DNA from: Iodidimonas sp. SYSU 1G8
GTDB taxonomy: Bacteria; Pseudomonadota; Alphaproteobacteria; SMXS01
Length of the DNA: 64,000 nucleotides
Reading direction: 5' to 3'
Assembly (NCBI RefSeq): GCF_039655775.1
Contig: NZ_JBBYXJ010000001.1
Span: forward strand, 1,178,001 to 1,242,000
Shown here: positions 15,037 to 19,648 of the stretch, in pieces
Layout of the letters: the number at the start of each line of letters is the position of its first letter
Numbering within the stretch: the stretch's first letter is position 1
Made by a program: the position numbers and the translations under genes
The notes under the pieces: model-generated
Database searches by the model: none
What the model was told of the DNA's origin: nothing
What the model saw: only the letters and a program-made list of their open reading frames with translations

Positions 15037-15170
15037 ACTGCCAGACTGGCGCGGAAGGACAAAGGATGGAAGCGACAGCGACCATACCGGACATTTGCAA
15101 GGAACCAGATGCCACCCGGGCAGTTGCCTCTGTGTCACCGACACACACGGCATTAAAACGGGAGATCGTC

Positions 15171-15542
15171 ATGAAACGTACCATCATCACCATCGCAGCC
15201 ACCTTTGCCCTCAGCTCCGCGGCGCTCGCCGGCGGCGACTGGAAGGACAAGGATACGGATGGCAACGGCCAGATCAGCAAGGCGGAACACGATGCCAGCG
15301 TAAAGGCGTCGTGGACCAAGAAGGACAAGAATGGTGACGGCAAGCTGTCCGCCGAGGAAGCCGGCATGACACCTGGCGCCGACTGGACGGCAGCGGACAA
15401 GGACGGCGACGGCAGCCTGTCTCCCGACGAATACACCGCCAAGAAGGCGGCCTGGTTTACCAAGGCCGACACAGATGGCAATGGCAGCCTGTCGCAGGCG
15501 GAAGCCGATGCCGCGAAGGCCGCGAAGAAATCCAAGATGTAA
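15171..15542 (+). CDS. Secreted four-EF-hand calcium-binding protein
   Basis: 123 aa. Signal peptide (MKRTIITIAATFALSSAALA), then four EF-hand loops: DKDTDGNGQISKAE, DKNGDGKLSAEE, DKDGDGSLSPDEY and DTDGNGSLSQAE. Each has the Dx[DN]xDG spacing with acidic residue 12, so four calcium ions could bind in the periplasm or outside the cell. There is no enzymatic or anchoring domain. GGGAG lies 6 nt before the ATG; the longer upstream reading lacks a signal peptide. Divergent from lutA (134 bp) and convergent with the TonB_C protein. It may be a calcium buffer or sensor; partner unknown. Confidence 0.82.
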   Translation: MKRTIITIAATFALSSAALAGGDWKDKDTDGNGQISKAEHDASVKASWTKKDKNGDGKLSAEEAGMTPGADWTAADKDGDGSLSPDEYTAKKAAWFTKADTDGNGSLSQAEADAAKAAKKSKM

Positions 15543-18086: not shown

Positions 18087-18383
18087 ATGTCTTTTCCCCG
18101 TGTCGACTGAGCCTGTGGATGAGCTGCTTATACAGAACGCGGCGCCGCCGCGCACAGCAAGGCTTCCATCCGGCGCCAAGAAAATCAACCGGCGGCGGCG
18201 GTCCAGGGTACCGAAAACCTGCACACTTAATGGTTGTGCTTTTCTGTTGCGCGCATCGGGCGTTTCGCGGCTAAATACCGCCGGGGACAACACGTCCTGG
18301 CGGATTTTGGCGAATTTATAGACGAGGCCAGCCGGCAGGGCGGCCGGACCATCGGTCCGGATGGGCAGGGCTGACGTTTCAGG
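18087..18383. other. 297-bp divergent intergenic region with two dyads
   Basis: The region between the acyl-CoA ligase (minus) and the mini-HTH/LuxR pair (plus). I see no coding potential. Two inverted repeats stand out: GCACA/TGTGC arms at 18221-18225 and 18235-18239, and a perfect 7-3-7 palindrome at 18344-18360 listed separately. AT-rich stretches near 18309-18322 (GAATTTATAG) could hold a -10 element for the LuxR transcript. Confidence 0.5.
18344..18360. promoter_or_regulatory. Perfect 17-bp palindrome upstream of the mini-HTH/LuxR operon
   Basis: CCGGACC, spacer ATC, GGTCCGG: a perfect dyad 23 bp before the ATG of the mini-HTH gene. Its size is close to that of lux-box operators, and its position suits autoregulation, but the sequence is GC-rich and a hairpin in the leader is an alternative. 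Confidence 0.45.
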
Positions 18384-18617
18384 ATGAGCAATCGGGCCGA
18401 GAGGCTGACAGAGCGCGAATATTTATGCCTGCGGCTGGCGTGGCTGGGCGATGCCGGCGACGCCGTCCTGTACCGTCACGACCTGACCAGACTGGCGTTC
18501 CGCGAATCGCTGGACCGCGCCGCGCTGAAGCTGCGCGTGGCGTCGGCCTGCGAGGCGGTGGTGGCGGCCGTGCGGCTGGGCCTGATCGGGCGCGGCGCGC
18601 CGAGGCGGCCGGCATGA
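18384..18617 (+). CDS. Miniature LuxR-type HTH-like protein, coupled to luxR
   Basis: 77 aa. By eye it aligns along most of its length with the HTH of the LuxR gene that follows: [14 protein letters not shown] against ALTARERDVLLRLT, and [12 protein letters not shown] against AAVVKAIRLGLI. There is no ligand-binding domain. The recognition-helix region ([17 protein letters not shown]) is diverged, so DNA binding may be altered or lost. Its TGA overlaps the ATG of luxR (ATGA at 18614-18617), indicating coupled synthesis. It could be a dominant-negative partner, a small co-regulator, or a decaying duplicate. Shine-Dalgarno support is weak. Confidence 0.55.
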
Positions 18618-19333
18618 TGATCGTCGGCGATTTCTTCGCCGCGTCGGCCCAGACGCGCAACCGCGAGGATCTGCTGACGGCGTTTCGCGGCGCGATGGCG
18701 CATATCGGCTACGAAACACTGCATTATTTCTGTTATCCCAGCCCATCGACCCGCGGCCCTCTCGCCGACCTCGTGCAGTTCAGCATGCTGCCGACCGACT
18801 GGATCGCCCATTACGACGCCGAGAAATATGAAGAGATCGATCCGCTCGGCGACCGGGTCGTGCATACGAGGGCGCCGTTCACCTGGGCGGAAGCCATCGC
18901 CAGTCTAGACCTGTCGCGCCGCCAGAAGGCGCTGATGGACGATATCAGGGATGCCGGTCTGTGGGATGGAATCACGGTACCGGTGCACGGTCCGTTCGGC
19001 CAGGTCGCCGGCGTCGCCTTAGCGCGCGGCGCGGCCGTGGGCGTGACGAGCGAAGCCGTGCATATCGCGCGGGTGCTGTCGATCCAGTTTCATCAGGCCT
19101 ATACGGCGCTGGAAGAGCTGACGGAAGCGCCCGTGTCGGCGCTGACGGCGCGCGAGCGCGACGTCCTGCTGCGGCTGACAGAAGGCCTGAACAACGCCGA
19201 AGCCGCCGCCCGCATGGGCGTGACCGAACACAGCGTGAAATTCCACGTGCAGAACGTGTGCCGCAAGCTGAACGTCAATTCCCGGGTGGCGGCCGTGGTG
19301 AAGGCGATCCGCCTGGGCCTGATCGTGCCCTGA
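18614..19333 (+). CDS. LuxR-family regulator with autoinducer-binding domain (solo)
   Basis: 239 aa. The N-terminal autoinducer-binding domain keeps all six invariant residues of AHL receptors: Trp63, Tyr67, Asp76, Pro77, Trp91 and Gly119. Each is offset by exactly +6 from TraR (57, 61, 70, 71, 85, 113). The C-terminal LuxR HTH is ALTARERDVLLRLTEGLNNA, continuing to VKFHVQNVCRKLNVNSR and ending VVKAIRLGLI. It should bind an acyl-homoserine lactone or related signal and regulate transcription. No luxI-type synthase gene is in the window, so it looks like a solo or a receptor for a remotely encoded or foreign signal. Starts in the stop codon of the mini-HTH gene. Confidence 0.88.
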   Translation: MMIVGDFFAASAQTRNREDLLTAFRGAMAHIGYETLHYFCYPSPSTRGPLADLVQFSMLPTDWIAHYDAEKYEEIDPLGDRVVHTRAPFTWAEAIASLDLSRRQKALMDDIRDAGLWDGITVPVHGPFGQVAGVALARGAAVGVTSEAVHIARVLSIQFHQAYTALEELTEAPVSALTARERDVLLRLTEGLNNAEAAARMGVTEHSVKFHVQNVCRKLNVNSRVAAVVKAIRLGLIVP

Positions 19334-19450
19334 CGGGCCGGCGAAACCCTACTGAGGTTGCTAGGTTTCGCCGGACGCGGTTTCACGGTTGAATGGCATG
19401 GTCGCAAAAATCGCCGTGCCGGGGGGCCGGCCCTACCGGAGACTGTCCCT

Positions 19451-19648
19451 TTGACGGATCGCAGCGGACTCAGCATCGACCGAGACTTCATCCTGGCCCA
19501 TGAGACACAAGAGGAAGCCGCCGACGCCATTCTGGGCGGCCTGGAATATCTGGTACGCGAGGCGCATGCCGCCGGCCTGAAGGATCTTGCCCGCGCCCTG
19601 ACGGGCGTCATTCTCAGCCCGAACCACTGGCCGGTCGCGCCGCGCTGA
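19451..19648 (+). CDS. Small hypothetical protein downstream of luxR
   Basis: 65 aa if started at the TTG at 19451, which has GGAG 9 nt upstream; an in-frame TTG at 19358 would add 31 residues that look non-coding. The core FILAHETQEEAADAILGGL followed by EYLVREAHAAGLKDLARALT is predicted helical and soluble, with no signal peptide. It follows luxR by 117 bp and its stop abuts the stop of the convergent corA. I do not recognise the family. It may be a quorum-regulated small protein, but that is inference from position. Confidence 0.5.
   Translation: MTDRSGLSIDRDFILAHETQEEAADAILGGLEYLVREAHAAGLKDLARALTGVILSPNHWPVAPR

Follow-up and report, generated by a model that had tools for sequence, protein, structure and literature searches.

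Genes and features of the locus

The window analysed here is a 64,000-nucleotide stretch of the genome of Iodidimonas sp. SYSU 1G8 (G000; 3.9 Mb in two contigs, C1 and C2), and positions given without a contig refer to this window. The locus was compared with its counterparts in five sister species that carry the solo locus (G001–G005), and with G006 of the same genus and G007 of another genus in the same family; these kin are MAGs. A small helix-turn-helix (HTH) protein gene, a luxR gene and a further small gene (S') follow each other on the plus strand, and the features are as follows:

18222–18292, plus strand: probable promoter region, in upstream DNA that is well conserved in the six-species alignment
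18222–18238, 18247–18252, 18272–18277 and 18283–18292, plus strand: parts of the probable promoter region, namely the CACACTTAATGGTTGTG block, TTGCGC, TAAATA and GGGGACAACA
18344–18360, no strand: 17-nt palindrome CCGGACC-ATC-GGTCCGG, with 7-bp arms and a 3-nt centre
18384–18617, plus strand: mini-HTH protein P0001, 77 aa from an ATG start, probably an A-type protein's HTH that has become detached (see below)
18617–19333, plus strand: solo LuxR-type AHL receptor P0002, from a conserved ATG start; the start named previously (18614) is one codon upstream
19344–19369, no strand: lux-box-like dyad AAACCCTACTGAGGTTGCTAGGTTTC (core 19348–19365), between luxR and S'
19451–19648, plus strand: S', a 65-aa small protein with a putative TTG start, homologue of the gene 3' of luxI in the parent row (see below)

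The region 18222–18292 is read as a probable −35/−10 promoter, and a consensus scan found no sigma-70-type sites. The CACACTTAATGGTTGTG block at its 5' side is well kept in all six species and may be a regulator site. Elsewhere in the window, a 158-aa ORF at 15066–15542 carries several EF-hand-like DxDxDG repeats.

A solo receptor with an intact AHL pocket

P0002 matched both domains of a LuxR-type receptor in Pfam, PF03472 with 83.1 bits (cut-off 23) and PF00196 with 61.1 bits (cut-off 23.5), and its solved relatives include RhlR, CviR, LasR, QscR, SdiA and TraR. Counted from the ATG at 18617, the pocket consists of W62, Y66, D75, P76, W90 and G118. Their spacing (4, 9, 1, 14, 28) is identical to that of the TraR pocket, which we take to be W57/Y61/D70/P71/W85/G113. 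Orthologues with 58–62% identity to P0002 were present in five of the six other genomes of the genus, and none was found in G006 (84% complete). All six pocket residues are invariant across the six solo luxR orthologues, in agreement with the original prediction of an intact pocket at TraR spacing.

That prediction also described a 77-aa ATG ORF (18384–18617) overlapping a 239-aa LuxR gene (18614–19333) in an ATGA motif. The ORF and the overlap are real. The luxR start, by comparison with the orthologues, has to be moved: five of five begin at the ATG corresponding to 18617, and the relatives read CTG at 18614. With the start at 18617, the overlap with the P0001 stop is TGATG. This arrangement still suggests translational coupling of the small ORF and luxR, as had been proposed.

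A search of the genome for luxI (PF00765) gave two matches, C1:486082 and C2:1396724, both outside the window, and PF03472 had nine matches in all. The earlier statement that luxI is missing therefore holds for the window and not for the genome, in which one of the two luxI genes belongs to a sister luxR–luxI row. By its sequence, P0002 is a LuxR solo of the AHL type without an adjacent luxI. The second luxI adjoins a LuxR gene whose product carries the AHL domain and stops within the HTH (G000:C2:1395993–1397185, minus strand; L068); no continuation of the HTH was seen by eye in the other downstream frames, and the arrangement is TrlR-like.

The parent row A–luxR–luxI–S

The sister row lies at G000:C1:484467–486862 (L048, 1968–4366) and reads A–luxR–luxI–S. 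A and luxR stand in the same order in the loci of G000, G001, G002, G003, G005, G006 and G007, and the parent-row luxR of G004 (78% complete) was absent among the matches listed. The luxI gene is present as an ORF in five of these seven loci and as a start sequence in the other two (G006 and G007), and PF00765 was matched in G000. S, a 61-aa ORF, lies directly downstream of luxI in all seven loci.

A is a 214-aa protein that is 94–96% identical within the genus and 73% identical to its counterpart in G007. No Pfam match was found in the two A rows tested, and A of G000 reached 11.8 bits against NCBIfam VisR (cut-off 300). The evidence that A is LuxR-like from end to end is an hhalign match with the alignment of solo LuxR proteins (probability 93.9%, E 1.6e-7, columns 8–211), between two profiles of very low diversity. 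The structure model of A was poor (mean pLDDT 45), and most of the VIA-align rows fell in the HTH region and had a low Z (best 6.1), so that the structure gives no conclusion about the N-terminal domain. A appears, as judged from sequence, to be a LuxR-like protein with a degenerate HTH. Among 385 genomes of the class, nine matched the A profile; five belong to this family (G000 included) and carry full-length A, and the other four gave HTH-only scores of 19.4–24.4 bits. A different tandem arrangement was observed at G007:C26:75494–78669 (L066), where four luxR-type genes follow each other on one strand and form a clade with the gene of G009.

P0001 is predicted to be a LuxR-type HTH protein

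P0001 matched no Pfam family at E up to 1, PF00196 included, and its sole NCBIfam match at this threshold was VisR, with 18.9 bits (cut-off 300). It matched an HTH of G007 with an E value of 8.2e-7 and the A-protein profile with 23.9 bits (E 4.8e-5 over the whole six-frame genome), covering A positions 147–210. None of 2000 shuffled P0001 sequences reached the real alignment score against the HTH of either G007 A or G000 A. In addition, the codon usage of P0001 was coding-like, with a log-likelihood ratio (LLR) of 0.361 bits per codon. Coding windows gave 0.533 (sd 0.259, 143 windows) and shadow windows −0.359 (sd 0.545, 238 windows), with 2.5% of the latter as high as P0001; the codon model was trained on 24 uncurated ORFs picked by length and codon-position GC.

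Structure prediction gave a four-helix HTH (pLDDT 87; helices 10–21, 26–31, 36–49 and 55–64). The best Foldseek rows of this model were GerE (PDB 1fse and 6jqs), with TM 0.70–0.72 and a best E of 0.012, none being below 0.001. GerE is a stand-alone LuxR HTH, and P0001 resembles it in size and predicted fold; it differs in having no PF00196 match, a diverged recognition helix and an overlap with a receptor gene. A sequence search of the PDB with A and P0001 gave no relevant match. Taken together, the sequence comparisons and the model indicate that P0001 is a genuine LuxR-type HTH despite its lack of a Pfam match.

A chance origin of P0001, as an ORF of high-GC DNA, is very improbable. Many overlapping ORFs do occur in the surrounding stretch, and 24–71% of simulated copies kept a 64-codon frame open under drift, depending on distance. 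Against chance stand the genome-wide E value to the A profile, the G007 match and the absence of any equal among the shuffles, as well as the confidently predicted fold and the place of P0001, which is equivalent to that of A. We rejected a chance ORF on the profile E value, the G007 match, the codon usage and the shuffles.

Residues T32, H36 and R49, which are usual in ordinary LuxR HTHs, are replaced in P0001 by A, S and A, and P0001 retains A52, V53, A56 and I62 in the last helix. Furthermore, A keeps H36, and P0001 keeps K43, which is lost from A. This pattern is compatible with a protein able to pair and poor at reading DNA, and equally with a drifting remnant. The earlier description of the small ORF as a LuxR-like HTH whose recognition helix has diverged was confirmed.

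Short LuxR-HTH ORFs were also looked for near other alphaproteobacterial luxR genes. No convincing one was found among 718 luxR-strand ORFs at 29 loci (best 7.9 bits); this is a small sample and no census, as it was drawn from a much longer match list and includes four of this family's own parent rows (L099, L101, L102 and L103). Moreover, none of 529 pattern-matched stretches in named genomes encoded a relative of P0001, with a pattern that reaches close relatives only.

The HTH is lost and the receptor is kept in sister species

The TGATG overlap is kept in all five sister species, and in all five the body of the small ORF is deleted in the HTH region. G001, G003, G004 and G005 retain a start like MTMSTLAERPMEGDR and 43–54 codons. 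G002 has lost start and frame, and 11 codons remain from an ATG. In the six pairs of G001, G003, G004 and G005, the residual ORF gave dN/dS values of 0.87–2.15, compared with 0.21–0.30 for luxR and 0–0.21 for S' in the same species. Between G000 and the five relatives, dN/dS was 0.34–0.47 for luxR, a weaker constraint than among the four relatives, 0.11–0.14 for S', and 0.31–1.07 for the small ORF on uncertain alignments of 11–54 codons. Constraint on S' is strong. The sister species have kept the receptor, S' and the dyad, but they have lost the HTH, and what is left of the small ORF drifts.

These data do not agree with a conserved two-protein unit, as the HTH frame is gone in five of five orthologous loci. 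Loss of the frame in close relatives had been named beforehand as the observation that would speak against the unit, and it is largely what was found. The HTH was probably lost in one shared deletion, and therefore the five losses do not count as five independent events.

In G000 itself, the HTH is intact. In a neutral-drift simulation of the A HTH, the score of P0001 was reached by 2 of 600 copies at a distance of 0.7 substitutions per site, and by 0 of 600 when the distance was 1.0. The dS between G000 and G007 is about 2 for A and luxR, that is, about 1 on the P0001 side, and on the tree this split is younger than the duplication described below. Both results indicate that selection probably continued to maintain the P0001 HTH for a long time after the duplication.

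A conserved dyad lies 3' of luxR

The 17-nt repeat at 18344–18360 is real, and an operator role had been suggested for it. It is absent at the aligned place in five of five relatives, and three of the five have other perfect inverted repeats, with arms of 7–9 bp, elsewhere in the same stretch. Being unconserved and matched by comparable repeats in the relatives, the palindrome does not stand above background, and we rejected it as an operator; the conserved dyad is found instead 3' of luxR, at 19344–19369.

An 18-bp dyad of the CCTACGGAGTACCGTAGG type follows luxR in all seven parent rows, and CCTACTGGATTGGCTAGG or a close form occupies the corresponding place between luxR and S' in all six solo loci. 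In a pattern scan of G000, the parent box was the only place with 0 mismatches among the matches listed, and the solo site had 2. At 2 mismatches, 109 forward matches were obtained, against 444 for the reversed control. The solo dyad is therefore not significant by pattern alone, and the case for it rests on conservation: in the 24-column window from 19346, 19 columns are invariant in six species (median 6) and 23 in the five relatives (median 11), making it the best conserved non-coding 24-column window between luxR and S'.

The locus is probably an old copy of the parent row

Four lines of evidence suggest that the order of the locus is A'–luxR–(luxI lost)–S': the luxR tree, the A profile together with the HTH tree, S', and the dyads. 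In the luxR tree (30 rows), the six solo and seven parent luxR sequences formed sister clades (99/98), each with a bootstrap of 100. G007 fell on the parent side, and the solo branch was long (1.01); the order in which the duplication precedes the separation of G007 is uncertain, since it depends on this long-branched tree. The HTH-less row G000_C2_1395993 was left out of the luxR and HTH trees, and the trees do not include the ninth PF03472 match of G000 (C2:264074) or those luxR genes of the relatives that scored lower.

In G000, only A itself and P0001 matched the A profile at E up to 0.001. The P0001 match on its own is unspecific, since four ordinary-length proteins of other genomes scored about as high on this profile (19.4–24.4 bits vs. 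23.9). P0001 also scored higher with an HMM of A-type HTHs (30.9 bits) than with one of ordinary HTHs (21.8 bits). In the HTH tree (38 rows), P0001 joined the seven A rows against 30 ordinary HTHs (98/96). After addition of the four nearest ordinary HTHs, those from other genomes that had also matched the A profile (34 ordinary rows in all), the split was retained at 93/93. The branch of P0001 was 1.05 long in the 38-row tree and 2.32 in the enlarged one, where the program issued a long-branch warning, and its place may thus be partly due to attraction.

S' and S share 41% identity over 46 residues, with a BLASTP E value of 4e-10 (a single pair, with composition correction off). In G000, G001, G003 and G005, the S profile found two copies per genome, of which one follows luxI and the other the solo luxR; G007 has a single copy. 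Among the remaining genomes of the 385 there was one borderline match (22.9 bits), and plasmids gave none.

An ordinary LuxR HTH as the source of P0001, either that of P0002 by partial duplication or that of another LuxR gene, was also considered. P0001 and P0002 have a C-terminal stretch in common (39% over 38 residues). In pairwise alignments, two ordinary HTHs scored 73 with P0001, which lies in the range of all A rows but the best (71–79), and one ordinary HTH (G113) reached 94 with the G007 A row; the long branch of P0001 points the same way. However, the best A row, that of G007, scored 100 with P0001 and the HTH of P0002 only 58, both trees separate P0001 from the ordinary HTHs, and P0001 stands directly before the sister luxR, in the place of A. 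We consider an ordinary-HTH origin unlikely; a copy of P0002's own HTH in particular is disfavoured by scores and trees. The reading that we hold to be likely, a judgement that covers origin and anatomy jointly, is that the locus is an old duplicate of the A–luxR–luxI–S row in which luxI was lost and A was cut down to its HTH, P0001.

Discussion

The original prediction proposed a two-protein quorum-sensing unit. Its solo receptor, intact pocket, LuxR-type HTH and gene overlap have stood up to comparison; the conserved system and the palindrome operator have not, and S' and the parent row, which explains the probable origin of the mini-HTH, had been overlooked. We propose that P0002, an AHL-type solo, would respond to AHL whose source is either a luxI at another place in the genome or neighbouring cells. 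From its position, the conserved dyad 3' of the receptor's own gene may be the site at which P0002 acts to control S'. P0001 would be translated just before P0002, the stop/start overlap pointing to cotranscription and coupling. It may serve either as a residual leader that feeds ribosomes to luxR or as a partner of the DNA-binding domain of P0002; as a partner, it would pair through its retained C-terminal helix and weaken or tune the DNA binding of P0002.

For the role of P0001, we lean slightly towards a decaying remnant without a function at the protein level, whose start region and TGATG stop deliver ribosomes to luxR. The relatives have kept just these parts, TGATG in five of five and the start region in four of five, while the body was deleted and what is left evolves with the high dN/dS given above; G002 has lost even start and frame, and the comparison of G000 with the relatives, on its uncertain alignments, gives 0.31–1.07. 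Yet the codon usage and HTH core of G000's own P0001 look selected, the deletion in the relatives was probably a single event, and the coupling that a leader would serve is itself putative. The rival reading is that of a two-protein quorum unit functioning in G000, in which P0001, a DNA-reading-deficient HTH of A ancestry, sets the threshold of P0002. In favour of this are the intact ORF with its coding-like codons, the confident fold prediction, the exchange of T32, H36 and R49 with A52, V53, A56 and I62 kept, a likeness to A retained beyond neutral expectation, and the overlap with luxR. On the other hand, the HTH was lost in all five orthologous loci while luxR and S' stayed constrained, no second species with a P0001 HTH was seen, and pairing of LuxR proteins through the HTH alone is assumed here. 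Moreover, loss of DNA reading is not uniform, as A keeps H36 and P0001 keeps K43. We regard the two-protein unit as possible, though somewhat improbable; a threshold-setting P0001/P0002 pair is at most species-specific and not a conserved system. Rather doubtful is the wider idea that in this family A, in which no AHL domain can be recognised, is an obligate or modulating partner encoded directly before luxR–luxI and that the window copy was pared down to an HTH-only "half receptor", made in step with P0002 through the overlap and pairing with its DNA-binding domain.

Several known systems resemble parts of this locus. The twin luxR topology consists of two adjacent luxR-type genes in tandem, and solos are common (PMC4357305). 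The tandem order is similar here; in the available text of that source, both twins are recognisable solos without luxI, whereas A, which has no Pfam match, precedes luxR–luxI, and in the window the A partner has seemingly been reduced to an HTH. VisN and VisR are LuxR-type proteins of one operon for which a heterodimer is proposed in the accessible part of PMC5977203. They are likewise LuxR-type operon partners, and VisR is the one NCBIfam match of P0001. In contrast to them, P0002 is an AHL-type receptor, and we rejected membership of P0001 and A, whose scores (18.9 and 11.8 bits) are far below the 300-bit cut-off. TrlR of Agrobacterium is TraR-like, has no DNA-binding domain and forms inactive heterodimers, according to the available portions of PMC13043044 and PMC7856919. 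The common feature is a damaged LuxR copy, which in the case of TrlR pairs with a full receptor; P0001 is the reverse, an HTH without a ligand domain, and does not classify as TrlR-type. The small proteins CinS and MmaP (59 aa) are produced together with luxI and bind PraR, as far as the available text of PMC5977203 and PMC10790750 describes them. S, encoded directly 3' of luxI, is like them in place and size alone. S', by contrast, follows luxR with no luxI before it, and within the genomes searched S occurred in this family only, apart from the one borderline match. No description of an A–luxR–luxI row or of an HTH-only LuxR partner was found in a literature search conducted mostly outside subscription journals.

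The locus probably represents a solo LuxR that arose when a whole quorum-sensing row was duplicated, together with an HTH stub, specific to this species, of a tandem LuxR-like partner. Partner proteins are known to tune LuxR receptors, and TrlR, which lacks a DNA-binding domain, is one of them. The course taken here is seemingly the opposite: the copy of a full-length LuxR-like partner shrank to the HTH alone and then vanished in the sister species. The strongly conserved A of the parent row is a more promising object for follow-up than P0001. The series from A to mini-HTH to empty leader would constitute a natural experiment to see if a receptor can be modulated by an HTH on its own, and the locus would show how an orphan receptor can arise from a complete operon.
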